64,000 nt of DNA. Origin: Methanolobus bombayensis. Lineage in GTDB: Archaea; Halobacteriota; Methanosarcinia; Methanosarcinales; Methanosarcinaceae. The notes under the pieces were generated by a model, which was not told where the DNA came from, made no database searches, and saw only the letters and a program-made list of their open reading frames with translations. Below are positions 4,801 through 32,700 of the stretch, one piece after another. The position numbers and the translations under genes were made by a program. Every line of letters begins with the position of its first letter. Position 1 is the stretch's first letter. The stretch lies in the NCBI RefSeq assembly GCF_017873415.1, contig NZ_JAGGKD010000004.1:248001-312000 (forward strand), given 5' to 3'.

Positions 4801-4916
4801 CAGACGGCCAGGTTAGTGTCAATGCCCGAAGCATTAAATTTACAAAAGGTCAGGACATGAAGGACTTTGCAGATGCGGAGAAAGTTGATATCAATATGGA
4901 TGAGGTTAGTCAGTGA
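1854..4916 (+). CDS. DUF499 family ATPase of an antiphage-type methyltransferase/helicase cassette
   Basis: This is a 1020-residue AAA-like ATPase. The Walker A segment AMGGGKTH is at residues ~74-81 and the Walker B-like LLILFDEL at ~166-173, matching DUF499 proteins found beside DUF1156 methyltransferases in bacterial and archaeal defence loci. Near residues 841-880 a segment with YTTDGSNP resembles the small C-terminal CHB_HEX/chitobiase-type beta domain. The start is GTG, set by GGAGGG at 1843-1848; the protein then begins QSIENLCKA. The gene overlaps the DUF3780 gene by GTGA, implying coupled translation. I infer that it uses ATP to drive or gate the cassette's action on foreign DNA. The biochemical role is not known from sequence. 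Confidence 0.88.
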   Translation: MQSIENLCKARDSIFDRNRRDIVLDISDVVEGKIDPYEFFEENYLTEGMKSLFKQVFRRFANESDSSVFKLTQAMGGGKTHCMIGLALLAKYPEIRKHVMGEEFGKNVLGEVKVVVFNGRESDAPYGIWGSIAEQIGKSDFFKDYYSPLKAPGKSAWVNLLKGQKLLILFDELPPYFENAKSITVGNGDLSIVTKTALSNLMVAIGTDELSQVSVVLSDLKATYEGGSEQVNQALHDFENEVGRSSVNIEPVGLNTDEVYQILKKRIFSELPDDETILSIAQAYGESIKEAGQMDLIHVSPEKMVQQVRDSYPFHPAIKDLYARFRENPGFQQTRGLIRFMRVLVSHLYETDGAKNAMLIHPHMIDLNNPEMSAEINLINSTLGNAISHDIASDGDSVAEMEDSKRGGSDAQDVCKLILMASLANVENSVLGLTTAEIITDIAAPGKDITILPDTINTLESQLCWYLHRANNGKVYFKNTENLVARLRSLADSYAKEAALKDVKEFLQTIFAPERKDCYQELQILPAVDDISVSQDKVKLILYEPHGGSLHPDLIGFYDSLDYKNRICFLSGQRDTMNNLISIGKEFKAIKFILAEMDSNGVRSDDTQRIVAQDLKDNIIHRLLSSARETFTRLHYPHSDDLRVTDLTMNFEGNKCRGEELIRTTLTDKQKFTLEVDGDTFRKKCEQRLFTQQTMQWSEIKKRAAILTKWQWHHPSALDNLKEEMLRKEQWRMDGGYVDKGPFPAPSTTVQLMEWNRDEDTGEATLKVVPVNGDTVYYDVGAEATTASAKVDDFQNFVTKDMQVSFLCVDSKGVHESGPTIKWSNSVTMKKRVFGDGDKKTVELKAAPDGATIKYTTDGSNPKNAGGLYSSPFEIDRSVRVVLAIAEKEGINSEPLQIDIDWKAEKQGLDLNKPTTWKHDHSIKSTKDTFDFTDRLKKYRGLVPEARISVVGKSWIELNVDSGIELSGEQIEKLIESLREVYSDGQVSVNARSIKFTKGQDMKDFADAEKVDINMDEVSQ

Positions 4917-5548
4917 GTCGTGAAAGTTCTGTTGTAGAGGGTTTTGGATTCAAACCTGCAGAGTCAGAGCATTATTTCCTTGTGTCCATTTCCTCTCCCA
5001 CTGGAGATGTTCAAATATCTGAGCATATGTCCTGGGATAATGAGATGTGGAAGGGCAAGATACGTGCAGTAAAAGATGAAAGTGATGAACGCCTACGTGT
5101 TTTCCTCCCAAGGGTCAAATGGGATGGAATTGCAGATGCAGTATCCTCTGAGTTCAACAGCCGCCTGAAGGAAATGGGTTACAAGAAAGGAAGCTGGAAG
5201 AAAAGAGGATTAACACCCGTTTCTCGTCTGTTCGGAAAAGAGCTTGTTCTCCTTGGCTGGGCAATAGAAGATGCTGATCCTGGACGTATTCATGCAGCTG
5301 TTGCCAACTGGCTTGGTCTTTTACCAGAAGAACGCTGGTGGCTCTATACTATGACCAATGCAGCTACAGGCCAGGCACTGCGAGGAAGAAACACAGGCTG
5401 GAGGGCAGCTGTCAGGTTTGCATTGTGCGATAATCCCATCAATTCATCTAAAGCTGAACAGCGTGTTGGTCTTATTGCAAGTCTGGATGACGAAGGAAAA
5501 AACGCGGATCTGGAAAAGAAAAAACAGGGTAGTTTACTTGATTTTTAA
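4913..5548 (+). CDS. DUF3780 family protein of the defence cassette
   Basis: This 211-residue soluble protein starts at a GTG that overlaps the DUF499 stop codon. Its position between DUF499 and DUF1156, its length, and the motif FGKELVLLGWAIEDAD followed by a tryptophan-rich stretch (EERWWLYTMTNAATG) and GWRAAVRFAL agree with DUF3780. No catalytic motif is visible. Since it is translationally coupled to the ATPase, a stoichiometric adaptor or specificity subunit is a reasonable inference. It is followed after 27 bp by the methyltransferase gene. Confidence 0.8.
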   Translation: MSRESSVVEGFGFKPAESEHYFLVSISSPTGDVQISEHMSWDNEMWKGKIRAVKDESDERLRVFLPRVKWDGIADAVSSEFNSRLKEMGYKKGSWKKRGLTPVSRLFGKELVLLGWAIEDADPGRIHAAVANWLGLLPEERWWLYTMTNAATGQALRGRNTGWRAAVRFALCDNPINSSKAEQRVGLIASLDDEGKNADLEKKKQGSLLDF

Positions 5549-5575
5549 TCTAACATTTTAAGTTTTGGAGATAAC

Positions 5576-8488
5576 ATGTCATCTAACAATATTCCTTTTA
5601 ACAAGTCATTCATAGAATCGCAATTTCCTGTGTCAAAAGTTTCAAAGGAGAGTTATAAGGAGCGGAAAGCTAACTATAGTCAAACACTTACAGGACTTGG
5701 AAAGTGGTGGGGAAGAAAACCATTGATTCTTGTAAGGGCAGCGATTCTTGGTTTACTCCTCCCAGCAACTGATAATCCTACTAAAGACCGTGAAATATTC
5801 CTTAAAATCCTAACAATGGATGACGAAGGAATGTGGCAAAGGAAGAAAACAAATATTACAGGTAAGGTGTTGAAAGGCTACCTTAGTCCTAGAGAAAAAA
5901 ACACTTATTTTGATGGTGATCGACTTTGCCGTGGCCTTTCATCTGAAGAAAAGGAAGAGCTTCAAAAGATGGTTTTTTTGCGAATGGGTTATGATGAACG
6001 CCTCACGTATTCTTATCGGCCTGAGGAAATTGATGGTCCATCAATGGAAACATGGAATGAAATTAATGATTATCTTGGAACCAATGCATCATCAATTCCT
6101 GAACTTGTAGAAGAGCTTGGCAAACGACAATTTGGAAAAAGACCATCAGTGGGGGACTGCTTCTGTGGAGGAGGTAGTGTTCCTTTCGAAGCAGCTCGCA
6201 TTGGTTGTGATGTTTTTGGATCTGACTTAAACCCTGTTGCTGCACTTCTTACATGGGCTTCAATGAATATTGTTGGAGGGGAAGGCGAACTTATTGTAGA
6301 AGTCAACAATGTTCTGCAGGAAGTCTATGATGCTGTTGACAAACAAATCATTGAGTGGGGTATTGAACAAAATGAAAAAGGTTGGCGTGCAGATGCCTAT
6401 TTGTATTGTTCAGAAGTGATTTGTCCAGAGTGTGGATGGAAAATACCTCTTCTCACTAAGATGGTGATAGGTGAAGGATCAAAAACAATTGCAAAATTGG
6501 AGGCAAATGAAGCTAACAAATGTTACAATATTCTTATTCATCAGAATGTTTCCACAGGAGAATTAGAATCTGCAAAATCTGCAAAAACTATTGATGATAG
6601 CGGAGTTATCTGTCCTAATCTCAACTGTCCTGCCCATTTCTCACCTACGCCCATAGAAGTCATTAGACAAGAAAACACTGGTGGACTTAGATTATGGAAC
6701 AAAGAAGATGTTTTACCTGCTATTGAAGACGTTTTCCAAGAACGTTTGTATGCTATCAGATGGTTAGAAACTTTTACAGATGAAAATGGTCAGCTTCAAT
6801 CTAAGAAAACGTATCTTGGAGCGGATAATTACGATTTACAAATGGAACAAAAAGTGTTTGTTCTTCTTAACGACAGATTTTCCGAATGGCAAGAGAAAGG
6901 ATATCTTCCAAGTATGAAAATTGAAGCAGGGTACAATACCGATCAACCTAAGAGAGAAAGAGGATGGACACACTGGCATCATCTGTTTACTCCTAGACAA
7001 TTGTTAACTAATGCTTTGTTCCTTAAAGAAACTGAACATAAATGCAAATCAAAATCATCATTTGTTTCATGCTTATTGGGACTTGGAAGAGTATTGGATC
7101 GCAATAGTAAACTATGCGTCTGGGATTCAAGCAAAGCAAATGAAAAGGTGGCAAATACGTTTTTGAATCAGGCTCTAAATACCATTAACAATTTTGGTTG
7201 CAGACCACTTATCCCTCTACAATCATCTTGGTTTAGCAAGATTAAGAATGAAAAAATAATAAATCAATTAAATATTCAAATAAAGACGATTGATGCACGT
7301 TCAATTCTAAATGACAATAGTTTTTGGGTAACTGATCCTCCGTATGCAGATGCTATCAACTATCATGAATTAACCGAGTTTTTCCTTGCATGGTATCAAA
7401 AACCCTTAAACGAAATATTTCCTGAATGGTATACTGACTCTAAAAGAGCACTGGCTATAAAAGGATCTGATGAAGAATTCAGAAAGAGTATGGTTGAAGT
7501 TTACAAGAACCTCGCTGAGCACATGCCTAAAAACGGTGCACAGATAGTTATGTTTACCCATCAAGATGCTAAAGTCTGGGCAGACCTTGCGATGATTGTT
7601 TGGGCAGCTGGACTACAGGTGACAGCAGCTTGGTGCATAGCAACAGAAACCGAGTCAGGAGGGATTAAAAAAGGTAAAGGAAACTATGTACAAGGGACTG
7701 TTCTCCTCGTCCTCCGAAAACAAACTTCAGATGATATTGCATTCCTTGATGAGATATATCCTGAAGTGGAAGAAGAAGTCAAAAAACAGCTTTCTTCAAT
7801 GTTGGATATTGATGACAAGGAAGATCCAAACTTTGCAGATACAGACTACCAGCTTGCAGCCTACGCAGCAGCTTTACGTGTGCTTACACGTTATAAGCAG
7901 ATAGAAGATATTGACATTGAACGTGAACTTTGCCGTGTAAGAGGAAAGGGAGAGGGAAATCCTCTTGAAGGAGTCATTGAAAATGCGGTAAAGATAGCCT
8001 GCGATTATCTTGTACCTGCAGGTATTGATTCATGGGTATGGAAACAGCTCATGCCTGAGGAGAGGTTCTATCTTAAAGGACTTGAGCTGGAAAGCCATGG
8101 AGAATACAGAACTGGAGCTTATCAGGAACTTGCACGTGGTTTTGGTATAAGGGAATATAAGAATCTCCAACAAAGCAAAAAAGCTAACGATACAAGACTC
8201 AAGACAGCTTCTGAATTCAAAGACCGTGATGTTGGAGGGGAAGGTTTCTCGTCTTCACTTGTAAGGAACATACTGTTTGCTATTAGGCAGACAAGACAGG
8301 AAGATGATACGGCAGCAGGTAAAGTATGGTTGCGAGAATATCCAGGGTATTGGGAAAAGAGGAAAGAAATTATTGAACTTCTCAGGTATTTCGCCGCGCT
8401 TGGAATGAACGATTCCATGGAACAATGGGAGGAAGACTCTAAGGCTGCAAAGATGTTGTCGGTTGTTGTGGAGCAGGACCACATATGA
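5576..8488 (+). CDS. DUF1156 DNA methyltransferase (adenine-type, DPPY motif) of the defence cassette
   Basis: This 970-residue protein has the DUF1156 N-terminal signature GKWWGRKPLILVRAAILG (residues ~41-58). A SAM-binding motif I, DCFCGGGSVPFEAARIG, is at ~193-209 and a catalytic DPPYADAINYHELTEFF at ~586. DPPY is typical of amino-methyltransferases acting on DNA adenine. Cysteine pairs at ~281-284 (CPEC) and ~345-350 form a possible zinc-binding insert. The start ATG follows GGAG at 5567-5570. By analogy with related systems it should mark host DNA while the ATPase/helicase parts act on unmodified DNA. That division of labour is inferred, not seen. Confidence 0.88.
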   Translation: MSSNNIPFNKSFIESQFPVSKVSKESYKERKANYSQTLTGLGKWWGRKPLILVRAAILGLLLPATDNPTKDREIFLKILTMDDEGMWQRKKTNITGKVLKGYLSPREKNTYFDGDRLCRGLSSEEKEELQKMVFLRMGYDERLTYSYRPEEIDGPSMETWNEINDYLGTNASSIPELVEELGKRQFGKRPSVGDCFCGGGSVPFEAARIGCDVFGSDLNPVAALLTWASMNIVGGEGELIVEVNNVLQEVYDAVDKQIIEWGIEQNEKGWRADAYLYCSEVICPECGWKIPLLTKMVIGEGSKTIAKLEANEANKCYNILIHQNVSTGELESAKSAKTIDDSGVICPNLNCPAHFSPTPIEVIRQENTGGLRLWNKEDVLPAIEDVFQERLYAIRWLETFTDENGQLQSKKTYLGADNYDLQMEQKVFVLLNDRFSEWQEKGYLPSMKIEAGYNTDQPKRERGWTHWHHLFTPRQLLTNALFLKETEHKCKSKSSFVSCLLGLGRVLDRNSKLCVWDSSKANEKVANTFLNQALNTINNFGCRPLIPLQSSWFSKIKNEKIINQLNIQIKTIDARSILNDNSFWVTDPPYADAINYHELTEFFLAWYQKPLNEIFPEWYTDSKRALAIKGSDEEFRKSMVEVYKNLAEHMPKNGAQIVMFTHQDAKVWADLAMIVWAAGLQVTAAWCIATETESGGIKKGKGNYVQGTVLLVLRKQTSDDIAFLDEIYPEVEEEVKKQLSSMLDIDDKEDPNFADTDYQLAAYAAALRVLTRYKQIEDIDIERELCRVRGKGEGNPLEGVIENAVKIACDYLVPAGIDSWVWKQLMPEERFYLKGLELESHGEYRTGAYQELARGFGIREYKNLQQSKKANDTRLKTASEFKDRDVGGEGFSSSLVRNILFAIRQTRQEDDTAAGKVWLREYPGYWEKRKEIIELLRYFAALGMNDSMEQWEEDSKAAKMLSVVVEQDHI

Positions 8489-8519
8489 GTGAAACAAAAT
8501 AATTTCAAGGACTAATAAA

Positions 8520-11225
8520 ATGATCAACCGCTTCTCATCTCGCCGTGAACCTATGGATGCAACATTTCTCAACAAACGCCTTGAAGGTGCCAGGAAGTAT
8601 GACAGAATAGCAGGCTATTTCAGTTCATCCATTCTTGAGGTTGCTGGAGAAGCACTGGATTCTGTTGAAGGAACTGTACGTGTTGTATGTAACTCACAGC
8701 TTGAACCAGAGGATGTTAAAACTGCACGTGCGGCTCTTGCAGCCATAAGGAAAGAGTGGTGTGCAGAGGAACCTGAAAAAATAGGTGACGAGGCACGTGG
8801 CAGATTCTTGAAGTTGTATCAGTATCTCAAATCAGGGAAGCTACAGGTAAGGGTGCTTCCTGACAAGGCATTCGGTCTCATCCATGGGAAAGCTGGGGTC
8901 ATAACAAAAGCTGATGGAACAAAGACCGCATTCATGGGAAGTACCAACGAAACATTGTCCGCATGGAAGCGTAACTATGAGCTTGTATGGGAAGATGATT
9001 CTGATGATGCTATTAACTGGGTGCAGGAAGAGTTTGATGCGCTCTGGAATCATCCAGACTATAAGGTTCTTGCAGAATTTATCATAGAAGACATTGGAAG
9101 GATAGCAAAGCGTGAGGTTATTCCATCCATTGTGGAATGGCAGAAACAACCAGAACCCGCTTCAGCTATTGTGGAAAGTCCTGTATACAGGAAAGAATTC
9201 GGACTTTGGGAACATCAGAAGTACTTCATTGACCTTGCCTTCAAGGCACATCAGACTGAGCATGGAGCTCGCTTTGTCCTTGCAGACATGGTAGGACTTG
9301 GTAAGACCCTGCAATTGGCAATGACCGCACAGTTGATTGCTCTTACAGGAGACAAACCTATATTGATCCTAACACCTGCAACTCTGAGATGGCAGTGGCA
9401 GGATGAAATGAAAGAACACCTGGATCTTCCATCTGCTGTCTGGGACAATGGTAGATGGGTAGATGAAGAAGGCATCGAATATCCGAAATATGGTGATGAA
9501 GGCATACTTAAGTGCCCACGAAGAATAGGCGTGCTCTCTTATGGTCTGATAACTCATTCCTATGGGAACGAAAGGTCAACTATACCTGACCTCCTGTGTT
9601 CAAAAAAATATGATTGCATCATAGTTGATGAATCCCACAGAGCCAGAAGAAAGAATCTAGGTCCAACACACGAAAATGAAAAAGCAGAACCGAATAATCT
9701 TCTTGCTTTCCTTCAGGATATAGCTGGTAACACCAAAAGTATGCTTCTTGCAACAGCAACCCCTGTTCAGCTCTATCCTATCGAAGCATACGATCTATTA
9801 TCAATACTTGGCGGTGGAAAAAATGAATCTGTACTTGGCAATAAGTTCAGCAAATGGAGAACAGAGTCATTTGAATCACTGAACATCATCCAGGGAAATA
9901 TAACAAATAATGATGCGGAAAATGATCTATTCAAATGGATAGCAAACCCATTCCCTCCCGCATCAGAAGGAATAGATTATTCAATCCTAAGGCGTTCTCT
10001 TTCGGTTGAGGATTCAGTGGCAGTAGTTCCACCATCAAGATGGCTGGATTTGAGTCCATCTGATAGATCCAGACTTGAAAGGATGAAAAATGACTTTTTC
10101 CAGAAGCATAATCCTTACATCAGGCACATTGTAAGAAGAACAAGAGATTTCCTTGAAAATGAGAAGAACCCTGAAACTGGGGAGCCTTACCTGCAGAAGA
10201 TAGAGGTCAAACTTTTCGGAGAGGATGACAAAGATGCAATACCTCTCCCAATATATCTCCAAGATGCTTACAAGGCTGCAGAAGAATTCTGTCAATTACT
10301 AGGTGAAAGAGCAAAAGGTACAGGTTTTCTGAAAACCCTTCTTCTCAGGCGTGTAGGTAGTACACTGTATGCTGGAAAAATTACTGCAAGCAAAATGTTG
10401 GGTATCCGTGAGGATTCAGATTTAGATTCTGAAGAGGAAGAAGATGTTCAGAGAAGTGAGCTTTTTGAGAATATGTCTGAAGCAGAAAGAAGCCTATTGC
10501 TGAGTTTTGTTCGAATAATTGATGAGCACATGGATAATGATCCTAAATATGAAAAGGTTGTGGAAATCTTAAAAAGCGATAGATGGATTGATCGTGGTTG
10601 CATAATCTTTTCCCAGTATTATGATTCAATACAGTGGCTTGCTGACAAATTAAAAGAAGAGTTGGTTGACGAGAAAATAGGAATATATGCAGGCAGCAAC
10701 CGTTCTGGTATTGTAGAAGATGGAATTTTCAGGCGTGCTTCCCGTGAAGAGATAAAATCACTTGTACGTAAAGGTTCTATCAAACTTTTATTGGGAACAG
10801 ATGCAGCCAGTGAAGGTCTGAACCTTCAGACACTAGGTACTCTCATCAACCTTGACTTGCCATGGAACCCTACAAGACTCGAACAAAGAAAAGGAAGGAT
10901 ACAACGTATTGGCCAAGTGTATGATGATGTATGGATTTACAATATGCGTTATAAAGGTTCAGTAGAGGACAGAGTGCATGAACTCCTTTCAGACAGACTT
11001 GAAAAGATAAACTCACTCTTTGGCCAGATACCTGATGTATTAGAAGATGTCTGGGTAGATGTTGCATTGAACATGATCGATGATGCAATGAAAACCATTG
11101 ATGCTATTCCACCACGGCATCCTTTTGAAATGAGATATGATGTTATTCAGCCTGTAGATTGGGAATCATGTGCACAAGTGCTTGATAATCATGAGAAGAA
11201 ACAGCATCTCTTGAAGGGATGGTGA
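8520..11225 (+). CDS. SNF2-type helicase with N-terminal phospholipase D-like nuclease domain
   Basis: This is a 901-residue protein. The N-terminal ~180 residues carry one PLD-type HxK motif (HGKAGVI, ~121) with GSTNET ~20 residues later, as in single-HKD nucleases that dimerise. The SF2/SNF2 motor follows: Walker A VGLGKTLQL (~258), DESH box (~370), ATATP (~415), and motifs V/VI TDAASEGLNLQTLGT and EQRKGRIQRIGQ (~760-800). An acidic run (DSDLDSEEEEDV) lies near 635. AAGG at 8507-8510 precedes the ATG. It closes the cassette and is the likely DNA-translocating and cutting effector. Confidence 0.88.
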   Translation: MINRFSSRREPMDATFLNKRLEGARKYDRIAGYFSSSILEVAGEALDSVEGTVRVVCNSQLEPEDVKTARAALAAIRKEWCAEEPEKIGDEARGRFLKLYQYLKSGKLQVRVLPDKAFGLIHGKAGVITKADGTKTAFMGSTNETLSAWKRNYELVWEDDSDDAINWVQEEFDALWNHPDYKVLAEFIIEDIGRIAKREVIPSIVEWQKQPEPASAIVESPVYRKEFGLWEHQKYFIDLAFKAHQTEHGARFVLADMVGLGKTLQLAMTAQLIALTGDKPILILTPATLRWQWQDEMKEHLDLPSAVWDNGRWVDEEGIEYPKYGDEGILKCPRRIGVLSYGLITHSYGNERSTIPDLLCSKKYDCIIVDESHRARRKNLGPTHENEKAEPNNLLAFLQDIAGNTKSMLLATATPVQLYPIEAYDLLSILGGGKNESVLGNKFSKWRTESFESLNIIQGNITNNDAENDLFKWIANPFPPASEGIDYSILRRSLSVEDSVAVVPPSRWLDLSPSDRSRLERMKNDFFQKHNPYIRHIVRRTRDFLENEKNPETGEPYLQKIEVKLFGEDDKDAIPLPIYLQDAYKAAEEFCQLLGERAKGTGFLKTLLLRRVGSTLYAGKITASKMLGIREDSDLDSEEEEDVQRSELFENMSEAERSLLLSFVRIIDEHMDNDPKYEKVVEILKSDRWIDRGCIIFSQYYDSIQWLADKLKEELVDEKIGIYAGSNRSGIVEDGIFRRASREEIKSLVRKGSIKLLLGTDAASEGLNLQTLGTLINLDLPWNPTRLEQRKGRIQRIGQVYDDVWIYNMRYKGSVEDRVHELLSDRLEKINSLFGQIPDVLEDVWVDVALNMIDDAMKTIDAIPPRHPFEMRYDVIQPVDWESCAQVLDNHEKKQHLLKGW

Positions 11226-11267
11226 CGAATTCTTTCTGAATCAATTTATATTGAAGTGAGTTTTACC

Positions 11268-12221
11268 ATGAGAAAATGTAAGTGTGGAACGCAGTTAGAT
11301 TCTAGAGAATACTGTCATCACTGTCAGCAGTATATGGTCTCCTATAAGAATAAGACTGATTTTAAAAAAAGATGTAGTATTTGCAATAAGCTTTTTAGAG
11401 ATTTGTCTAACTATATGGATCATCTCAAAAATCATCCCCAATGTGATTATTGTCAGGAAAGATTCTTCTCAGAAGATGCACTAAAAAAACATCTTGAATC
11501 TAATCATACATGTCCTATATGTAATGAATACTATTGCTCTGTTTCAAAACACCTTGTCATGGCGCATCCTTATTGTGAGTTTTGTGATAAGAGATTTTTA
11601 AATCGGGATATTTTTAAAGAACATATGAAGGATCATCCAAAATGTGAGTATTGTGGAAATAATTTCCAGGACAAGATACATCTTGATTCTCATATACTGG
11701 AAAAACATCATTGTCACGTGTGTAACCAATATATTTGTAATGTTGAAGAGCACATCCGTGAGCAACATCCATTCTGTAACTTATGCGATCAGTATTTTTT
11801 TGATGCAAAATCTTATGAGCAACACAATCAGCAGAAACATACACATCAATGTACCTATTGTGACAAAATTTTCAAGCTCAAGGCAAGCTTAGAAAATCAT
11901 ATATCAAATAGTCATAAGTGTAGTTATTGTAACAAATATTTTAGTGAACTTAAACAGCACTTTATTGATGAACACTTTTATTGTGAACGCTGCAAGAAGC
12001 CATTTTTCAATGCTAATGATTATAAAAAAGACCAGAGCTTTCATAATATGGTTACATACAAATTTGTAGCTCCTTCGAAAGGACGTAAACAATCAAAGAA
12101 CACTTCTCGAAAAATATTTGGTGGAAAAATCGAATGCCAGTTTTGTCTCAAAACTTTTGCAAGTGAGAACGAGAAAGATGAACATATCAAAGCATTTCAT
12201 TCAAAACGAAAAAAAAGGTAG
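11268..12221 (+). CDS. Multi-C2H2 zinc-finger protein, copy 1 (11 finger units)
   Basis: Of 317 residues almost all are Cys/His fingers. An N-terminal ribbon (CKCG...CHHC) is followed by 11 Cx2C...Hx3-4H units. Finger spacing cycles as 12, 12 and 9 residues between the last Cys and first His, three times in a row (fingers 1-3, 4-6, 7-9). Finger 10 is degenerate and finger 11 ends in a basic tail. A GTG at 11256 gives a 4-residue longer form. I chose ATG 11268 because it aligns with the start of its paralogue and has GTGAG at 11256-11260 ahead of it. Arrays this long are rare in archaea. It is likely a nucleic-acid binder. The gene ends TAG-TAA. Confidence 0.85.
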   Translation: MRKCKCGTQLDSREYCHHCQQYMVSYKNKTDFKKRCSICNKLFRDLSNYMDHLKNHPQCDYCQERFFSEDALKKHLESNHTCPICNEYYCSVSKHLVMAHPYCEFCDKRFLNRDIFKEHMKDHPKCEYCGNNFQDKIHLDSHILEKHHCHVCNQYICNVEEHIREQHPFCNLCDQYFFDAKSYEQHNQQKHTHQCTYCDKIFKLKASLENHISNSHKCSYCNKYFSELKQHFIDEHFYCERCKKPFFNANDYKKDQSFHNMVTYKFVAPSKGRKQSKNTSRKIFGGKIECQFCLKTFASENEKDEHIKAFHSKRKKR

Positions 12222-12331
12222 TAAATATTTTCCTGTAATAATAATTTAAAACAGAAGTGTTAATGAGTCAGCATATGGATGCAGAAAACAAAAGAGCATG
12301 CCTAAAAATCATACAAAAAAGAGGTAGCAAT

Positions 12332-12550
12332 ATGATTGAATCGGTAGATGTAGATATAAGTGACTTTATTGACGACGGTGACATTATTTCTGAAACAGTA
12401 TATAATATTGACATAAACATTGAAATTGACTGGGATACTGTTGCAGAAAAAGTGCTTGATATGTACACGGGTGGTTTTGATATTGATGAAATTGTGCACA
12501 GGGTAAGAACAAATGAGAATAAATATCTAAAAGCATCTCAGGATTTTTAA
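12332..12550 (+). CDS. Small acidic protein between the two zinc-finger genes
   Basis: This encodes a 72-residue, strongly acidic protein rich in Asp, Ile and Val (MIESVDVDISDFIDDGDI, later ending KASQDF). The start ATG at 12332 has GAGGT at 12321-12325. Upstream in-frame ATG 12263 and GTG 12257 would lengthen it to 95-97 residues but lack a good ribosome site. It stops 1 bp before the second zinc-finger gene, so the two are almost certainly co-translated. The charge is opposite to that of the basic finger proteins. I do not recognise the family. A DNA-mimic or inhibitor-like partner of the finger proteins is only a guess. Confidence 0.65.
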   Translation: MIESVDVDISDFIDDGDIISETVYNIDINIEIDWDTVAEKVLDMYTGGFDIDEIVHRVRTNENKYLKASQDF

Positions 12551-12551
12551 A

Positions 12552-13643
12552 ATGTCTAATTGCAGATGTGGAAACAAATTAGATTCAAAAGGATACTGCC
12601 ATGAGTGTCAGCAATATGACACATCTCACGAAAAAAAAGACTTTTTTGAGAAAAGATGTGTCATTTGCAACAAGCTGTTTACTGATTTATCTTTCTATAT
12701 GGATCATCTTGAAACTCATCCACAATGTGACTTTTGTAAGGAACGTTTCATATCAAAAGAAAAATTGAATGATCATTATGATTCAGACCATAAATGTCCC
12801 TTATGCAATGAATATTATCGGTACCTTTCAGAACACATTTACTATACTCATCCTTATTGTGATGTTTGCAATAAGAATTTTTTAAATAATGATATTTATG
12901 AAGAGCATATGAAGAAACATCCTCAATGTACTTACTGTGACAAAAAATTCAAGGATGATTCTGCTCTTTATATCCACGTTCAAGAAACTCATAAATGTCA
13001 TGTCTGTTTGAAATATTTCACTGATGTTAGTGATCACTTGAATTCAAACCATTCCTTTTGTAGATTGTGTAATCGTTATTTTATTGACGAGAAACGATAT
13101 ACGCAACACATTGAGCTGGAACATACTCATAAATGTATGTACTGTAATACGTTTTTCAATTTCAAAGAGGAATTGGATACACATTTAAAAAATACTCACA
13201 AATGCAAAGCTTGCAAAGATTATTATACTGATCTTCGACAACACTTTATAGATAATCATTTTTACTGTGAAATCTGCAGAAAGCCTTTTTTTACAATTCA
13301 AGATTACAATTTTGATAAAAAAATGCATGAACATGTGGGAAAAATTATGCAACAAATTGAAAAAGAGAATAAAGAAATGCTTGCAAGAGCATTTCCAGAT
13401 GGTTTTCCCAATAAAAAAAAGAAAAACACAAAAAAAATAGAATGTCCTTTCTGCTCTAAAACGTTTCTATACGAAGAAGCAAGAGATAGGCACATAAAAG
13501 AAATGCATTCTCATGAAAAAACAAAATCGTCAAAAACTGTAAAGAAATCTAATAAATATAAATGTCCTTTTTGTGAAAGAAAATTTAAAACAGAGGAGGG
13601 AAAAAGTCAACATATAACAGCAGTTCATCCAAATAAATTGTAA
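12552..13643 (+). CDS. Multi-C2H2 zinc-finger protein, copy 2 (12 finger units)
   Basis: This 363-residue paralogue of the gene at 11.3 kb has the same N-terminal ribbon (CRCG...CHEC) and the same 12-12-9 spacing cycle repeated three times. A degenerate finger, a lysine-rich linker (~residues 270-300, KKKKNTKK) and two further classic fingers follow. The finger order and many non-ligand residues (for example MDHL and HPYC) match copy 1, so the pair arose by whole-gene duplication after the internal triplication. It probably binds DNA or RNA at a long site. It follows the acidic small ORF by 1 bp. Confidence 0.85.
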   Translation: MSNCRCGNKLDSKGYCHECQQYDTSHEKKDFFEKRCVICNKLFTDLSFYMDHLETHPQCDFCKERFISKEKLNDHYDSDHKCPLCNEYYRYLSEHIYYTHPYCDVCNKNFLNNDIYEEHMKKHPQCTYCDKKFKDDSALYIHVQETHKCHVCLKYFTDVSDHLNSNHSFCRLCNRYFIDEKRYTQHIELEHTHKCMYCNTFFNFKEELDTHLKNTHKCKACKDYYTDLRQHFIDNHFYCEICRKPFFTIQDYNFDKKMHEHVGKIMQQIEKENKEMLARAFPDGFPNKKKKNTKKIECPFCSKTFLYEEARDRHIKEMHSHEKTKSSKTVKKSNKYKCPFCERKFKTEEGKSQHITAVHPNKL

Positions 13644-16924: not shown

Positions 16925-18244
16925 TCAGAACTGGTCGCTGAACACATGTTCCAGTTTCACTTTAAGCCTCTCCTCAACACACTGATAACAATTCGCTGAC
17001 CAGAATGGTACATCAACAGCAGTAATTCTGATACATTCATCCGTACCACCTTGTTTAACAACAAAAGTACAATCCTCTGCCAGTTCTTCTGAAGTATTCG
17101 GATATATCAGTAAAACCTTCTCAGTACCTCTTCTGTAAGCATAGCTTACCATCTGATACATGTCAGCTTGAGAAATGCCTTTCTTTGAATCACTATTCTC
17201 CAGATCCCAGCGAGGTTTATATTTAGTATCAATAATTATTTGCTCGCCAGTTTCCTTATCAGTTAGCAGAATATCGTGCTGGAGATTGAAAGTTTTTGGA
17301 TCATCATGCAGGTAAAGATTTGACTTTTGAGCTTCCACTTTGAACTTGCCACTGAAATGTTTTCGAATAAAACCTGCTATGAACTCTTCAAAGATGAGTT
17401 CCATAGGAAACAACAGACTCCAATTCCTCATATCATAGTTCTCATGAGAATAAACCTGATTTTCCAATATCATACTACAGATATGGACTATCTCTTCATA
17501 ATCGCCATATATGGGAGATATTTGGAGACTCGAGAGCTGTTGGGATGAACATACCTGATCATCAACATCATCCAGCACAAAAATGATATCATTCAGCAAT
17601 CTCTGGGTTTCAGGGATTCTGGCTTTTGAAAGCAATAATCTGGTACAGTATTTAATTGTACGATTAAGTGAGTTATCAAACAGAAACGGTTCATAATCAC
17701 AATCTATCTGATGGTAGTTGCAATATGAAATTCGATTCACATAACGAGTGAAATTTATCCTTCCGCGTGGAGTCTGTAAAGCTTCAGATACTTCTTCATA
17801 AGCAGAGTAAGGCTGATTGCTTATAACCTCATGTATTTGATTTGCAAATAGGTATATGATAAGTTCTGGTAATTCGTATATATCACATTGATCAAGGAAA
17901 GCCTGATTGAATGGGAATTTTACTCTATTGCAGTAGCTGAACCAGTAGAACAAATGACGATGCATGAGCTCTCTGCTGATATCGCCATTATTTTTGAAGA
18001 TCTTAGGGAATATCTCGACCTTGAAGTCCTCAAAATGAATGAAGCCGATGTAGTTTCTTGCTCTGGCCAGTTCTCCATCAAATATCAAAAATGGCTGATA
18101 CTTATTTCTCTTTTTGAGAGAATCATCTTCCTTCTTAGGTGGCCAGACCTCTTTGTATTCTCTCCATAGGGAATACAAGTAAGATTCAAGAGAAACTCGG
18201 TCAGGAACCTTGACCTGCTCACCGTATTCAAATATCTCTTTCAT
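16925..18244 (-). CDS. mcrC: McrC, nuclease subunit of McrBC type IV restriction system
   Basis: This 439-residue protein lies directly downstream of mcrB (4-bp gap). The C-terminal half carries a PD-(D/E)xK nuclease core: HDILLTDKETGEQIIIDTKY, with Asp at ~324 and DTK at ~337-339. The N-terminal half matches the McrC specificity/partner region (YIGFIHFEDFKVEIFPKIF). In McrBC systems, McrB hexamers translocate on DNA containing modified cytosine and McrC cuts it. The family assignment is secure from the nuclease motif plus pairing with McrB. Confidence 0.9.
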   Translation of the reverse strand: MKEIFEYGEQVKVPDRVSLESYLYSLWREYKEVWPPKKEDDSLKKRNKYQPFLIFDGELARARNYIGFIHFEDFKVEIFPKIFKNNGDISRELMHRHLFYWFSYCNRVKFPFNQAFLDQCDIYELPELIIYLFANQIHEVISNQPYSAYEEVSEALQTPRGRINFTRYVNRISYCNYHQIDCDYEPFLFDNSLNRTIKYCTRLLLSKARIPETQRLLNDIIFVLDDVDDQVCSSQQLSSLQISPIYGDYEEIVHICSMILENQVYSHENYDMRNWSLLFPMELIFEEFIAGFIRKHFSGKFKVEAQKSNLYLHDDPKTFNLQHDILLTDKETGEQIIIDTKYKPRWDLENSDSKKGISQADMYQMVSYAYRRGTEKVLLIYPNTSEELAEDCTFVVKQGGTDECIRITAVDVPFWSANCYQCVEERLKVKLEHVFSDQF

Positions 18245-18248
18245 GAGT

Positions 18249-19919
18249 CTAGTGCTGTATTTGCCAGTCGTATTTCTCTATATCATATTTCACTGACCAG
18301 CTACTTCCTTTGAAGATATCCTCTACAATATCGGTTTTGCCTGAGAAGTATTCCATCAGAAGTGGTATCACTTTATTGTGCAGTACATCAGTTATACCTA
18401 TATTGTTCATGAAATATCCATGGCCTATAAGGTAATTAGTCGACTTCTTACGATCATATATTTCTTTATTTATGTGTCTGAGAATACTGCGTTCCTCATC
18501 CATCAGTAAACCATAATCAGGGAAATATCCAATGAACTCGAATCGTCTTCTTAGTGCAATGTCAATTAGTGCAATTGATTTGTCAGCAGTGTTCATGGTT
18601 CCTATAAGATAAAGATTCGGAGGCACTCCAAATACCTTGTCTTCATTTGGAATGTTAACCATAAGCTCATTCTTAGCTCCAATGCGCTTATCCTCTTCTA
18701 AAAGTGTAATCAATTCACCAAAGACCTTTGATATATTAGCTCGATTAATTTCGTCTATTATAAGAACATATCTTTTTAATGAAACCTCCGTCGCAGCTTC
18801 TTTTCCCAATTCCCATAATTCATTAACCAATGGATCAAAATAAGCCCTTCGACCACTATTAAGTTCTCTTATTCCTTCGTAAAGACCTTGGAGCGTATTG
18901 ATACTCAATTTATAAGTGTTATCAACGCGGTTTCTATAAACAATATAGCTATCATCAGGATTTACTTCCGTAATCCAAAATGATGATTTGCCACCTAATG
19001 TTTTGAGTTCAATTTCATCACCATTCTCAAGTGGTTCCATAAACTCGGAAAACACCTCCTCAAAAGGTCTAAGAGCATCTACGATATTCTGAGATTGTAA
19101 ATAGTTCTGCTCTGCTCTTTTACATAACTTGTAGAACACTCCTTCTGTTCTTTTAAATTTGAGATCTGAGCCATCTAGGTCTGGTCGGATACCTATCATG
19201 AAATCTTCATAACCGTAATTCTGGTGGAAGGTAACAAATTCTATTTGTCCTTCTTCTCGTAAAAAATCAAAAACGTCTTTATTTTCATCGTGGCTTGCAT
19301 TATTGCCAGTGATAATCTTGACTGCTTTATCAATGGTCTTGAATGTTTTCCCAGTACCAGGAGGACCATAAAGAATAATGTTGCATGGATGCTTTGGTAG
19401 TTCTGTTTCTTTTTTTACAAGTGGCACTTTATCGGACATGAATTTCACTCCAAAATAAGGTTTGAATAATATCTCATTAGCTTCATTCAGGTCTCTTGGA
19501 GTGATTTCTGTCAGTGTGCTGTTTCCACTTGGATAAATATCTTTTTTGTGTTTCTTCAAAGAATCTGGATAATTTTTGATAGCAGGTTTAATGTATTCTA
19601 CTTCCCTATATATCCATCCAGGTTCACCAGTAATATCTTCTGAAACATATTCCCACGAACCAGGCTTGACCTTAGCAATTGTGTAAACTTCATCCCCACC
19701 AACAGTGATGTATACATAATCGCCATCTTTGAGTGTATTTTTAAATCTCTCAGCCTGTCCTTTTTTGGTACTTTCATGAAGTACTATCCACTTATTTTGT
19801 TTTAATGTCTCTAGTATGTCAGCATATTTTTTGAGCTTAAAAGCACCATGTGACATTTTGTAGAGTCTTTGTTCCTCAAGAGGAATCTGTAATAATGTGT
19901 CTTGTAGTTCAGTTTCCAT
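18249..19919 (-). CDS. mcrB: McrB, GTPase/AAA+ motor of McrBC type IV restriction system
   Basis: This is a 556-residue protein. The AAA+ domain has Walker A GPPGTGKTFKTIDKA (~186), Walker B VLIIDEINRANISKVFGE (~382) and the McrB signature GTMNTADKSIALIDIALRRR (~440). The N-terminal ~120 residues (GDYVYITVGGDEVYTIAKVK...) look like an EVE/PUA-like beta-barrel that could read modified bases, replacing the usual McrB DNA-recognition domain. It ends in TAG just before the mcrC ATG. It recognises methylated or hypermodified DNA, which would complement the methyltransferase cassette upstream. Confidence 0.9.
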   Translation of the reverse strand: METELQDTLLQIPLEEQRLYKMSHGAFKLKKYADILETLKQNKWIVLHESTKKGQAERFKNTLKDGDYVYITVGGDEVYTIAKVKPGSWEYVSEDITGEPGWIYREVEYIKPAIKNYPDSLKKHKKDIYPSGNSTLTEITPRDLNEANEILFKPYFGVKFMSDKVPLVKKETELPKHPCNIILYGPPGTGKTFKTIDKAVKIITGNNASHDENKDVFDFLREEGQIEFVTFHQNYGYEDFMIGIRPDLDGSDLKFKRTEGVFYKLCKRAEQNYLQSQNIVDALRPFEEVFSEFMEPLENGDEIELKTLGGKSSFWITEVNPDDSYIVYRNRVDNTYKLSINTLQGLYEGIRELNSGRRAYFDPLVNELWELGKEAATEVSLKRYVLIIDEINRANISKVFGELITLLEEDKRIGAKNELMVNIPNEDKVFGVPPNLYLIGTMNTADKSIALIDIALRRRFEFIGYFPDYGLLMDEERSILRHINKEIYDRKKSTNYLIGHGYFMNNIGITDVLHNKVIPLLMEYFSGKTDIVEDIFKGSSWSVKYDIEKYDWQIQH

Positions 19920-25435: not shown

Positions 25436-26398
25436 ATGAAGAAGCCTAATGATACTAAAGAGGAATTGGATGTTCTGCTTAAAATACCTTATCCTTTCTC
25501 GGCTGAACAAGCAAATGCCGTTATCCTATGTGTAAAATATCTCCAACTCATAGCAGGACCTGGTGCAGGAAAAACTGAAGTTATGGTACGAAGGGTACTT
25601 TACTTAATCCTATGCCTACAAGTACCAGCTGAATTAATTACGATTATTGCATTTACAAATAAAAATGTTGAATCTATAAAATCTACTATATATAAGCGCG
25701 CAGAATCTTATGGTGACAGCACTCTCATGGAGAAAGTAAATCGTCTTAACATCCACACAATTCATTCTTTATGTAAAAAAATAGTTCAAGAATTTGCTGG
25801 TTATGGGGATTTTGATGTGTTCCCTCCTGAAAGAGAGCTTCCATTGTTAATGCGAAAAGGAATTGATTTTGGAATCCAGTATCTTCCACCATTACCATCT
25901 AAACCTAAACCATGGAAGTGGATTCTCTTCTTGGATACTGTTTCATTGATTGAAAATGAAATGATGGATTTTAAGGAGCTAAAAATAGCTAATCCATTAT
26001 TCATGGATAAAATGGAAAATTACTATCGTTTCCTTGAGAAGCATCGATTTATGACCCACTCAATGATGACAAGAAAGGCAATTGAATATCTTGAACGGGA
26101 AGATTCCATTAAACCAGATATCAAGTACCTGATGGTTGATGAATACCAGGATATTAACCCTGCCCAGGATAAATTGATTCGTCTACTTTCAAAAGATGCA
26201 GATTTAACCGTTGTAGGCGATCCATTCCAGACAATTTATCAGTGGAGAGGTTCAGATAGATCCTTTTTTGAGAATTTTTCTGAGACTTATCCTTCTTCTA
26301 TAACCCTCAAATTGGAAAATAACTATAGGTCGAGGGGGGATATTGTCGGATTCATCAATGATGTCAAAAGTACGATCATATTTTCACCTGACAAATAA
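25436..26398 (+). CDS. UvrD-type helicase, N-terminal half of a split helicase-nuclease gene
   Basis: This is 320 residues from ATG 25436 (a GTG at 25412 would add eight). It has the SF1A Q-motif region (FSAEQANAV), Walker A GPGAGKTEV (~41), motif II DEYQDINPAQDKLI (~236), motif III GDPFQTIYQWRG (~262) and motif IV NYRS (~298). It stops at TAA just after motif IV. The remaining motifs V-VI and a nuclease domain are in the next ORF, in another frame. Alone it cannot be a complete helicase. Either the two halves assemble or the gene is broken by the insertion described at 26393-26483. Confidence 0.85.
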   Translation: MKKPNDTKEELDVLLKIPYPFSAEQANAVILCVKYLQLIAGPGAGKTEVMVRRVLYLILCLQVPAELITIIAFTNKNVESIKSTIYKRAESYGDSTLMEKVNRLNIHTIHSLCKKIVQEFAGYGDFDVFPPERELPLLMRKGIDFGIQYLPPLPSKPKPWKWILFLDTVSLIENEMMDFKELKIANPLFMDKMENYYRFLEKHRFMTHSMMTRKAIEYLEREDSIKPDIKYLMVDEYQDINPAQDKLIRLLSKDADLTVVGDPFQTIYQWRGSDRSFFENFSETYPSSITLKLENNYRSRGDIVGFINDVKSTIIFSPDK

Positions 26399-26483
26399 AC
26401 CGATTTGTGTCTCAAACATACAAGCAAAGGAGAGGTATAAAATGACAACAAGAAACAACAAATCAATTGATTTGTGTCTCAAA
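26393..26483 (+). repeat. 65-bp insertion bounded by imperfect 26-bp direct repeats that splits the helicase gene
   Basis: ACAAATAAACCGATTTGTGT (26393-26412, continuing CTCAAA) recurs 65 bp later as ACAAATCAATTGATTTGTGT (26458 on, also continuing CTCAAA). The first copy lies in the frame of the N-terminal half and contains its TAA. The second lies in the frame of the C-terminal half. Collapsing the repeats would join the reading frames cleanly (…FSPDK-SIDLCLKATR…). The added 65 bp shifts the frame but also supplies GGAGAGG at 26429-26435 and an ATG at 26442. Confidence 0.8.
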
Positions 26484-28238
26484 GCTACTAGGGTAGGTAT
26501 GAATAATATCTATTATAATGGGTTCAAATCAGAAAATGAAGAAACTTCATGGGTTGCTGATGCAATTGAAAAATATGTGTCAGATGGTGGTTCATACAAC
26601 GAAATATGTGTCTTGGTTCGAATCTTTAAATTTGCTGAATCATTGATATCGGAACTCAGGAAACGAAACATTCCATATTCCATTACAGGAAAAAGGAGAT
26701 TGTTTGGTTATGCTGAGGTAATAGTTGTTACAAAACTTATGGCGTGGTTGTCATTTAAAGGTTTCTACAATGAAAAAGGCTTAAAGAATAGTATAACAGG
26801 GGATAAGCTACTCGAATCGGCTCTTACTGATTGGCAAACACATTTCCCAAATTCTAGTTTGAATTCGAATGTCAGACGCCAACTTGAAAACTGGAAAGCA
26901 AAATCCCTTTCAGGAGGGTATGATGACATCAAATCAGTATATGAGGCAATGCTCAATATACTGAATTTTAAACAACTCGATGAAGCTGATAAGAAACAGA
27001 TGCAAGTGATACTTCATTTTGGACAATTTTCAACAATGCTGAATAATTTTGAACATTCTCTCAGACTAGGGGGTTCAAAAAGGAATTGGGAAGAAGATTT
27101 CAACACACTTTGCTTCTATTTGCATGAAGCAAAAAAAAGCTATGGCACGGTTTCTGAAGAAGTTTCAAATTCAGAAGGTGTTGCTATTTCAACTATACAT
27201 CAATTCAAAGGACTTGATAGGGATTGTGTCTTTATGCCATATCTCATCGATGGTCACTATCCTTCAAGCCAAATGGGTAAGTCCAAAAGCTATATGGTAG
27301 ATGTATCTTCTTTTGTTATTGGCAGATATGCAGGAACAAGGGAAGATGAAGCTAATATATTTTATGAGGGTATCAGCAGGCCAAAGCACTCACTTGTTAT
27401 GACATCTAATTACGGGAAGGGGACTGAGATCAGTCCATTCTTAAAGGATAGTCTACAGTCCAACTTTGTTATAAAATTAAACGATAAGTATTCTTTTCCC
27501 GATTTTCAAATAGATCCGACCACACATTCTGTAGATGAATTGAAGTCATATGGTGTGTCTGAGATTATGCTAAATCATAAATGTCCACGTCTTTACTTTC
27601 TACGTGAAATATGCGGTTATTCATCTAAATTTAATCAGATGCTTGGATATGGGAAGTGCCTTCATTTCTGTGTACAACAGATCGCGGAAAAAACCACCAT
27701 GGGTATTGATCCACACACAATAGTTGATGATATCGTTGAAAAGCATCTGCATCTTCCATTTGCACCTAATACTGATAATGTAATTGCGAAGCAAAAAGCC
27801 AAGAAAATGCTTCATGATTACATAGACAGGAATCCAGATGATATGGCCAACATGTCTGATACGGAAATCCCGATAACGATCAAGTTTCATGACTATCTCG
27901 TTGAAGGCAAGATAGACGCAATAATTGTTGATAATGATGGCAAGGATATCCGTGAAAACAAGACTTCTGAGGAAGTAATGAGCAAGGAAGATATGTCTCT
28001 ACAGGTCCAGATTTATGCTGTTGGGCTCACGGGGAACAACAGTTTCAAAAGAGGTAGTGTAGCTTTTCTGGATGATGGGACTGTGCATACAGTAGATGTT
28101 GGCAAGGAAAGCCTTAAGGCCGCACAGCAGATAATTGATGATTGTGTCAGTGGGATGGAGAGAGGTTATTATCCTCCAAAACCCTCCACATTTTGTGAAA
28201 AATGTGATATGAAAAATATCTGTAAATTTGCGAAGTAA
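26442..28238 (+). CDS. UvrD-type helicase C-terminal half fused to a RecB/Cas4-like nuclease
   Basis: This is 598 residues from ATG 26442, which has an excellent GGAGAGG site supplied by the 65-bp insertion. It holds the second RecA lobe with motif V HQFKGLDRD (~254) and motif VI FYEGISRPK (~308). A PD-(D/E)xK domain follows: GKIDAIIVD (~490) and ENKT (~506). Cysteines at ~379 (NHKCPR) and at the C-terminus (CEKCDMKNIC, ~585-594) fit the Fe-S cluster of Cas4/AddB-type nucleases. The upstream half supplies motifs I-IV. Together they would form a helicase-nuclease of AddAB/PcrA-Cas4 type. Confidence 0.85.
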   Translation: MTTRNNKSIDLCLKATRVGMNNIYYNGFKSENEETSWVADAIEKYVSDGGSYNEICVLVRIFKFAESLISELRKRNIPYSITGKRRLFGYAEVIVVTKLMAWLSFKGFYNEKGLKNSITGDKLLESALTDWQTHFPNSSLNSNVRRQLENWKAKSLSGGYDDIKSVYEAMLNILNFKQLDEADKKQMQVILHFGQFSTMLNNFEHSLRLGGSKRNWEEDFNTLCFYLHEAKKSYGTVSEEVSNSEGVAISTIHQFKGLDRDCVFMPYLIDGHYPSSQMGKSKSYMVDVSSFVIGRYAGTREDEANIFYEGISRPKHSLVMTSNYGKGTEISPFLKDSLQSNFVIKLNDKYSFPDFQIDPTTHSVDELKSYGVSEIMLNHKCPRLYFLREICGYSSKFNQMLGYGKCLHFCVQQIAEKTTMGIDPHTIVDDIVEKHLHLPFAPNTDNVIAKQKAKKMLHDYIDRNPDDMANMSDTEIPITIKFHDYLVEGKIDAIIVDNDGKDIRENKTSEEVMSKEDMSLQVQIYAVGLTGNNSFKRGSVAFLDDGTVHTVDVGKESLKAAQQIIDDCVSGMERGYYPPKPSTFCEKCDMKNICKFAK

Positions 28239-28301: not shown

Positions 28302-28871
28302 ATGAGTATTATTATGACGCAAGAACTAAGTGATGAATGTAAACAAACTATGGAGGTATTTATTGAAGCTGGAATTTCAAGAGACAATGCAGAGGTATTA
28401 GCAGTTCTTTATCATGGAAGAGTAATGACCTTAGCAAAAATCCAACAGATGCTAGGCATTAAAAAATATCAATGCAATAAGGTTATACAACATTTGGTGA
28501 AAAGGAAATGGATTAAATCTTATAAAGCTTCCTCAGGCAAAAGAGGACACCTTGAAAATGCATATTATCCTATAATGGGAAAAGAAGAACTGATAATAGA
28601 TGCTCAAAAGCTGCCTTTTTCAATGTTATTTCCTAATAAACCAAGAGAAAGCTTTGCTATTTTCATTTATATTAATAATCATAAAAAAGTCACAAAAGAA
28701 TCCATAATAAAAGAGATACCAATCAGAGAACCTCGTCTTGATATAGTATTGGACGAACTAAAAAAACTGGGATGGATAGAAGTATCGATACAACTCTCTT
28801 CCAAAACTGTATTCTGTAAAAGTATTATTTCATTCGATGAACTACATATGAAATATAAGGATATAAGTTAA
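28302..28871 (+). CDS. Winged-helix DNA-binding protein
   Basis: Up to 189 residues are encoded; ATG 28314 is an equally possible start. The N-terminal ~90 residues form a helix-turn-helix of ArsR/TrmB type (AEVLAVLYHGRVMTLAKIQQ, ending KRKWIKSYKAS), with a basic wing region (SGKRGHLEN). A second wHTH-like part may lie at ~125-165 (VTKESIIKEIPIREPRLDIV). It sits 63 bp after the split helicase-nuclease and may regulate it. No ligand-binding domain is evident. Confidence 0.65.
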   Translation: MSIIMTQELSDECKQTMEVFIEAGISRDNAEVLAVLYHGRVMTLAKIQQMLGIKKYQCNKVIQHLVKRKWIKSYKASSGKRGHLENAYYPIMGKEELIIDAQKLPFSMLFPNKPRESFAIFIYINNHKKVTKESIIKEIPIREPRLDIVLDELKKLGWIEVSIQLSSKTVFCKSIISFDELHMKYKDIS

Positions 28872-30384: not shown

Positions 30385-31019
30385 ATGAAAATGTAGTAGG
30401 ATATGCAAGAACTTCAACATCGGGAGTTCATAATCACAGAGAACAGAATATTGAGACACAAATAAAGGAACTCAAGGACATGGGCATCGACACTTCACAT
30501 ATATTCTTCGATGAAGGTATCAGTGGAGATGTACCTGCAGATGATCGCCAGGGATTCCAGGACATGTTGAAACATCTTCGAAAAAATGATATTACATGGG
30601 TATATACCTTTGAAATATCATGGATAGGTAGAACGTACTATGATACTCTGGAAACGTTGATAGAACTCGAAAAAAGTGGAATACGCATAGTTTCTTTATC
30701 TCCAAACGAGAGCTGGACAAAAATAGAAGACCCAGTCATGAGGGGAGTATTCATTTCATTCTATGCATGGGCTGCAGAGAACGAGAAACGTTCAGTACAG
30801 GAAAGGGTCAAGAGTGGAATAAGGCGTGTGAGAGCAGAGGGTAAGACCTGGGGAAGACCTACAAAAGAACCTAACAGATCACTGTTCACACGGTACAAGA
30901 ACAAGGGGCATAATATAGCAGAGATATCACGCCTGATGGATATTCCAGACAGTACCTTGAGTAAGTATGTCAGGGAATGGAAACGCCAGGATGAACAGGA
31001 ACGCATAGCTGCAGTGTAA
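30385..31019 (+). pseudogene. Serine recombinase (resolvase/invertase type), frameshifted near its start
   Basis: From ATG 30480 an open frame of 179 codons encodes most of a resolvase catalytic domain (DEGISGDVPADDRQGFQ, VYTFEISWIGRTYYDTLETL, ENEKRSVQERVKSG). A C-terminal helix-turn-helix follows (NIAEISRLMDIPDSTLSKYV). The same frame continues upstream to 30384 and encodes the missing start of the domain, GYARTSTSG, with the catalytic Ser at 30414-30416, but no start codon. The ATG at 30385 is one base out of frame at the A-run 30388-30391. One extra A would restore a normal start. It is either a real inactivating deletion or an assembly error. Confidence 0.8.
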
Positions 31020-31485: not shown

Positions 31486-32700
31486 TCAAGTTTTATGTTG
31501 TCCTTGAGAATGTTGGAATTCCTTTCTTGCAACTTCTTCTGCTTTTCTCATGACTTCTTTTACTGGAATGCCACTTGTCTTGGCAATTTTCTTACAATCC
31601 TCGAATTCAGCAGAGATATTGAGTAAAATACCTTCAGAGTCTCTGGCAATCTTCACTGCAGATTCATACATTTGCCCTTCAAGTTCAAATTTAAGCATCT
31701 CTATGTTTCTTGCAGCCATTAACCTGTGACGTGCAGGCATAACTCTTACTCCCAGGGAACCTGTCTCGATAATGATCTTCCGTGCGAGCTTTACACTATC
31801 CTCAGGTTTTGCAATGACCTTAATAATATGAGCTGGACGGCCTTTTTTCATTGTTGCCGGAATAATTGCGACATCCCTTGCTCCCATGGCAAGTAATTCC
31901 TCGAACAAATTGCCCAGTACTTCTCCGCTTACATCGTCAGCATTTGTCTCAAGCACTTCTATCATATCCGGAATCAGGCAGGAATCAAGCTCAGAAATTA
32001 CTCCTTGAAATACGTTTGGACCACTAAGCTCAGCATCTCCAGCTCCATAACCTATTGAAATTACCCTGCCTTGAGGAAAAGTCTCTACAGGTCTCGCAAA
32101 ATGGGATAGAATGGCAGCCCCGGTGGGAGTCAGAAGCTCTTTTTGCTCATTCCCTCCTCTAAAATAGAGTTTCCCTTTACTTAGCACTTCAAGTGTAGCA
32201 GGAGCTGGCACAGGCAGAGTCCCATGTGCACATTCTATTATTCCGCTTCCCACATTGATTGGAGTACAGTAAACAGAATCACATCCAAGGGAATGGATAG
32301 CTGCCGAAGAGCCAATGACATCGGCAAGGGCATCACTTTGTCCAACCTCATGGAAATGAAGTTTCTCAAGATCATCCACTCCATGAACCGAAGCTTCAGC
32401 TTTTGCCATCTTTAAAAAGATATCAAGAGCACTTGTTTCTACTCTGGATGGTAGTTTTGCTTCCTTTATAGAATCCACAAGTTCTGGATATGTGCGTGAA
32501 TGTTCTCTTTCAGGTACATTAATCTTGACGTCAGTAGCTTTTATTCCTTTTTTCACGACTTCCTTTATATCCACAGATACGGGAGCAGAGGCTTCTATAA
32601 GTTCTTTTACGTTATCTCTGTCAGCTCCGAGGTTCAAAGTACATCCAAGGATCATATCTCCGGCTGCCCCGGAAAATGGGTTGAATATAAGTGATCTCAT
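31486..32700 (-). CDS. larC: LarC, nickel insertion protein for the nickel-pincer nucleotide cofactor
   Basis: This 404-residue single-chain LarC has an N-terminal part with NPFSGAAGDM (~residues 7-16) and HFHEVGQSDALADVIGS (~120). Its C-terminal domain has ELLAMGARDVAIIPATMKKG (~268) and ETGSLGVRV. LarC is a CTP-dependent cyclometallase that inserts nickel into the pyridinium dithiocarboxylate mononucleotide made by LarB and LarE. The start overlaps the larB stop by four bases (ATGA). LarE and LarA are not in the window. In many bacteria larC needs a programmed frameshift between LarC1 and LarC2; here the frame is continuous. Confidence 0.92.
   Translation of the reverse strand: MRSLIFNPFSGAAGDMILGCTLNLGADRDNVKELIEASAPVSVDIKEVVKKGIKATDVKINVPEREHSRTYPELVDSIKEAKLPSRVETSALDIFLKMAKAEASVHGVDDLEKLHFHEVGQSDALADVIGSSAAIHSLGCDSVYCTPINVGSGIIECAHGTLPVPAPATLEVLSKGKLYFRGGNEQKELLTPTGAAILSHFARPVETFPQGRVISIGYGAGDAELSGPNVFQGVISELDSCLIPDMIEVLETNADDVSGEVLGNLFEELLAMGARDVAIIPATMKKGRPAHIIKVIAKPEDSVKLARKIIIETGSLGVRVMPARHRLMAARNIEMLKFELEGQMYESAVKIARDSEGILLNISAEFEDCKKIAKTSGIPVKEVMRKAEEVARKEFQHSQGQHKT

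Follow-up and report, generated by a model that had tools for sequence, protein, structure and literature searches.

The 64-kb window, the whole stretch of Methanolobus bombayensis DNA analysed here, carries a helicase–nuclease whose coding sequence lies in two reading frames (Table 1). ORF1 runs from an ATG at 25436 to a TAA at 26396–26398 (the ORF list began it at a GTG 24 nt upstream of that ATG) and encodes the N-terminal part of a UvrD-like SF1 helicase. ORF2 encodes the rest of the helicase (PF13361, 9.4e-24), followed by a Cas4-like C-terminal nuclease (PF12705, 3e-17; PF01930, 1.6e-7) with cysteines for a predicted Fe–S cluster. We found no internal stops over the 918 codons of ORF1 and ORF2. 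Alignment indicated that the helicase motif residues are retained, as are nuclease residues D492, E505, K507 and Q521 and the four cysteines. Helicase and nuclease are not joined in one polypeptide, a stop codon and an insert separating the two frames between motif IV (NYRS) and motif V, where an earlier note on this DNA had placed the break. On its sequence, we therefore file the gene as a split descendant, and not an intact member, of the UvrD–Cas4-like fusion family.

Table 1 Features of the split helicase–nuclease locus (window coordinates)
Feature	Position	Strand	Remarks
ORF1, UvrD-like helicase N-terminal part (motifs I–IV)	25436..26398	+	320 aa; PF00580, 1.9e-40
Walker A / motif I (GPGAGKT)	25556..25576	+	From sequence and alignment
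Helicase motif IV (NYRS)	26321..26332	+	From sequence and alignment
67-bp insert (copy 1 and following sequence), out of frame	26391..26457	+	Separates the ORF1 and ORF2 frames
Repeat copy 1	26391..26424	+	Past the ORF1 stop, same frame still homologue-like (TDLCLKHTS)
Shine–Dalgarno-like GGAGAGG before ORF2	26429..26435	+	6 nt before ATG 26442
Stretch between copies, holding the ORF2 ATG	26442..26457	+	Homologue match not seen here
ORF2, helicase rest (motifs V, VI) and Cas4-like PD-(D/E)XK nuclease	26442..28238	+	598 aa
Repeat copy 2, coding in ORF2 frame (SIDLCLKATR region)	26458..26491	+	Starts with 18-bp palindrome
Helicase motif V region (STIHQFKGLD)	27189..27218	+	From alignment
Nuclease part	27537..28235	+	ORF2 cysteines 381, 585, 588 and 594 invariant with homologue
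Winged-helix/MarR-type protein	28302..28871	+	Directly downstream of ORF2

The insert is bounded by an imperfect direct repeat of 34 nt, identical at 28 of 34 positions and spaced 67 nt start to start. The earlier note had recognized both insertion and repeat but gave their lengths as 65 bp and 26 bp. This is the sole pair in the window with at least 28/34 matches at a spacing of 34–200, and its similarity extends to 26441 and 26503 if one 5-nt gap is allowed. When the 67 bp are left out, the span 25436–28238 amounts to exactly 912 codons including the stop, which bears out the claimed uninterrupted protein of about 900 residues. Beyond the stop, the ORF1 frame of copy 1 gives TDLCLKHTS, and the ORF2 frame of copy 2 gives IDLCLKATR, where the closest intact relative has VDLCLTPTR. 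Residues 316–331 of that relative (about 16 codons) are thus encoded twice, in two different frames, and we conclude from this double match that the insert, by its sequence, is an out-of-frame short duplication together with about 17 nt of other sequence. Copy 2 starts with a perfect 18-bp palindrome (26458–26475), one of four in the window, which might have aided formation of the duplication.

The closest relative, from Methanococcoides seepicolus strain LLY (G107), has a single frame of 911 aa, equal in length to the window gene minus the 67 bp; relative to it the window gene contains an insertion, as had been proposed. ORF1 is 55.3% and ORF2 57.8% identical to it. Its protein gave two matches in the M. 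bombayensis genome, over residues 12–331 (through one TAA) and 316–909. A search with the same protein covered two overlapping sets, 392 genomes from the phylum and 237 from the class; 33 genomes in all, including this one, matched at E 1e-30 or better. None of the 32 others is interrupted at this site. The earlier note had held that a two-gene structure common among homologues would speak against its reading, and such a structure is not what the homologues show. In 28 of the 32 the gene is a single open frame of 900 codons or more; three of these (G433, G104 and G109) match over part of the query only. The frames in the other four are shorter and none breaks at this site; that of G062 ends about 30 nt short of a contig end, and G402 and G086 match the query only in part. 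The fourth, at L070 (G081:C39), is interrupted at the helicase–nuclease border, probably by an assembly gap since its contig holds 206 N. No relative was found in the viral contigs searched, and phage and plasmid records gave distant matches only, below 60% identity. In the alignment the relative, too, is unlike the rest of the family in motif III, so that this small subfamily is, judged from these sequences, divergent anyway. The scar of gene fission in this known kind of enzyme is real, and is seen in a single genome.

The break's place in the fold was taken from sequence alignment with PcrA only. It falls in a length-variable stretch after motif IV, opposite a stretch of PcrA sequence that we take to be loop-like; under the usual naming of PcrA domains and helicase motifs, ORF1 would cover domains 1A and 1B together with the first element of 2A. 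Structure prediction for the intact relative, based on a three-row alignment, gave no usable model (mean pLDDT 33.1). The ribosome site and ATG that the earlier note had described as placed for efficient translation of the second half are present and usable. The strength of the site is modest: of the window's 2,820 ATGs, both strands counted, 128 have a contiguous match of at least 5 nt to the consensus used. We also considered whether both frames might be read as a single protein with about 22 extra linker residues, through +1 ribosomal frameshifting near 26390–26398. The insert does not interrupt the ORF2 frame, which shares 26343–26398 with ORF1, but we estimate that an open stretch so long would be expected often by chance, and inspection by eye showed no recognized slippery site at the stop. 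The RNA folding of the junction was unremarkable (z −0.19), on which ground programmed frameshifting aided by RNA structure was rejected; we regard the +1 frameshift as highly unlikely.

A defence island makes up the left half of the window and includes a DUF499/DUF3780/DUF1156-methylase/PLD-helicase set. These genes are consecutive at 1854–11225, with PADLOC matches down to 1.8e-288, and form a candidate defence cluster. They are followed at 11256–13643 by two adjoining proteins that, by reading, consist mostly of repeated Cys/His zinc-finger-like units, which to our knowledge are unusual in an archaeon. A pair at 16925–19919 on the minus strand appears McrC-like and McrB-like by reading, with no PADLOC match at 1e-10. 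On the other side of the helicase–nuclease, the Methanococcoides locus also has a winged-helix gene directly after the nuclease. This is another gene: the relative's winged-helix protein has no tblastn match in the window, and what the two proteins have in common is limited to weak matches, under the cut-off, to a regulator family. A serine resolvase at 30390–31019 has its N-terminal catalytic region in frame without a preceding start codon. This frame lesion at the start of the gene falls in a short run of A. It is related (52% over 206 aa) to a resolvase downstream of the relative's gene (L037, 9696–10370), which is intact. From about 31385, next to the resolvase, the window is similar in nucleotide sequence to a genome of the same genus (G015). 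The larC-like gene at 31486–32700 is one of three such genes in the genome and is 92% identical to a copy in G015 over a match confined to residues 1–279.

As a clock for the duplication we used the divergence between the repeat copies, 6/34, on the assumption that the two began as identical sequences. With both copies drifting, neutral change would be expected to leave about 11 stops in the two frames, and none of 400 simulations stayed open; with only copy 1 drifting, about 20 stops would be expected and the open share was again 0 of 400. At the lower 95% limit under shared drift, 4.3 stops are expected and 7 of 400 simulations stayed open (0.0175). Single frames at this lowest distance were not decisive, ORF1 remaining open in 0.21 and ORF2 in 0.07 of 1,000 runs. 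Neutral decay should thus have left several stops if the copies diverged after the duplication, and that both frames are open supports two working subunits. The argument would be void if the copies already differed when joined. This genome contains no second copy of the helicase–nuclease gene that could have donated a diverged copy. Nor is there a convincing further copy of the insert, a search for it as a mobile repeat having returned only short, weak matches (best outside the locus, E 0.06).

We scored private changes in the window protein and in the relative at columns conserved in five outgroup proteins. At 173 such columns in ORF1, the window and the relative each had 18, with branch lengths of 0.52 and 0.47, respectively; ORF1, which codes for motor only, changes no faster than the relative, and this supports the two-subunit reading. 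The helicase part of ORF2 has 21 private changes against 8 in the relative, of 154 columns (binomial p 0.024, one of five comparisons), including residues adjoining motifs V and VI, and this acceleration weakens it. Corresponding counts for the nuclease part are 9 and 6. Branch lengths agree with the counts, those of ORF2 being 0.42 and 0.26.

The main competing explanation is that the gene is a young pseudogene, inactivated by the duplication in a decaying island too recently for further lesions to have accumulated, in which case the cell may produce an inert ORF2 fragment or no ORF2 product. The excess of changes in the helicase part of ORF2, the presence of the split in one genome only and the frame lesion at the start of the nearby resolvase would fit such an account. 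At 0.02 substitutions per site or below, moreover, both frames would often be open by chance (0.27 at 0.01 and 0.09 at 0.02). Yet the divergence between the copies, at 6 of 34 sites and with a gap besides, suggests that the duplication is older, and neither the complete lack of stops nor the unaccelerated ORF1 is what decay would predict; we regard inactivation as a serious possibility, though one that falls clearly short of even chances. A split produced by sequencing or assembly error is improbable. The genome is a draft in 35 contigs, and a short run of A, where errors are commoner, is also the site of the resolvase lesion. But each copy reads coherently in the frame to which it belongs, so that a single base error would not explain both, and an assembly duplication is unlikely because the copies differ at six scattered sites, unlike a misassembled duplicate.

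The earlier note had also raised a reversible on/off switch operated by recombination between the repeats, and this idea did not survive closer inspection. A direct repeat does flank the insert, and 7 of the 35 crossover points that we tried yield one open frame. These points (0–6) all lie left of the stop, within a 6-nt run of identity; the long identical block, a run of 15 nt, lies beyond the stop codon, which leaves the switch without support. The remaining 28 crossovers keep a stop at codon 321, and loss of a copy would be irreversible by the same route. We consider such a switch scarcely credible.

We slightly favour a maintained two-polypeptide enzyme over an early pseudogene. The chance that the split gene has been maintained as a two-chain helicase–nuclease since the duplication we put at close to even. 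In this explanation, a single-gene UvrD/Cas4-like helicase–nuclease beside a defence island would have been split by an out-of-frame 67-bp duplication that fell in the length-variable linker after motif IV. Copy 1 would now carry the stop that ends ORF1 as well as the ribosome site that serves ORF2. Both halves would probably be translated from one mRNA with separate initiation, ORF2 from 26442. We infer that they assemble as one active helicase–nuclease, ORF1 giving domains 1A and 1B with the first element of 2A, and ORF2 the remaining motor and the predicted Fe–S nuclease. The fuller proposal, a working heterodimeric SF1 helicase–nuclease whose RecA-like domain 2A comes from two polypeptides and which arose in one step by the 67-bp out-of-frame duplication, with the stop codon and the ribosome site drawn from the gene's own codons, we hold more tentatively, at somewhat less than even. 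Two further observations weaken the two-subunit reading: the ribosome site of ORF2 is not rare, and the nearby resolvase has lost its in-frame start, so that the island is partly decaying. If it is true, one small duplication would have yielded a stop, a ribosome site and the start of a second gene, and spread a motor domain across two chains. Cooperating halves would make a clear case of gene fission with the scar still visible, and would probe the tolerance of a UvrD-type motor for a break inside domain 2A; a young pseudogene would be an ordinary example of decay beside a defence island.

An earlier report of this split was not found in the open-access literature, searched by title and start of abstract. 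In the available passages of a survey of gene fusion and fission in archaea, a helicase case is absent and technical fissions are warned of (PMC11237513). UvrD–Cas4-like (pfam12705) fusions are described as components of several defence systems of archaea and bacteria, in restriction–modification contexts and as stand-alone copies (Hudaiberdiev et al. 2017, PMC5704561). The window gene has the same domain order, SF1 helicase then Cas4-like nuclease, and relatives at two loci (L038 and L039) adjoin a large DNA methylase, in line with the contexts described there (PMC5704561). It differs in that the polypeptide is interrupted within the helicase itself and not at the junction with the nuclease, and in that neither it nor its closest relative lies directly beside a large DNA methylase. 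The DUF1156 methylase cluster is about 14 kb away, and no restriction–modification or Dcm/Vsr neighbours were seen adjacent in the window or at the relative's locus (L037).

Helicase and Cas4-like nuclease also occur as two adjacent genes, mostly in Clostridiales (PMC5704561); there too consecutive genes supply the two activities, but the boundary runs between the domains, whereas the window break lies within 2A and, on its sequence, arose by duplication. AddAB, AdnAB and RecBCD resemble the window enzyme in joining UvrD-like motors to RecB-family nucleases. The AddA, RecB and UvrD/REP two-chain entries matched weakly, with all scores far below equivalog cut-offs (ORF1 against addA_Gpos, 79.8 bits against 707.65), so that the locus does not reach the AddAB or AdnAB equivalog level, and the motors combined in those complexes are complete ones rather than halves. 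A precedent is offered by reverse gyrase, which is naturally split in Nanoarchaeum equitans and in Methanopyrus kandleri. These are archaeal helicase-containing DNA enzymes made as two polypeptides, of which that of M. kandleri likewise has its break off the domain border (PMC8185306). They belong to an unrelated family and have been studied as proteins (PMC8185306), whereas the split in the window is known from sequence.
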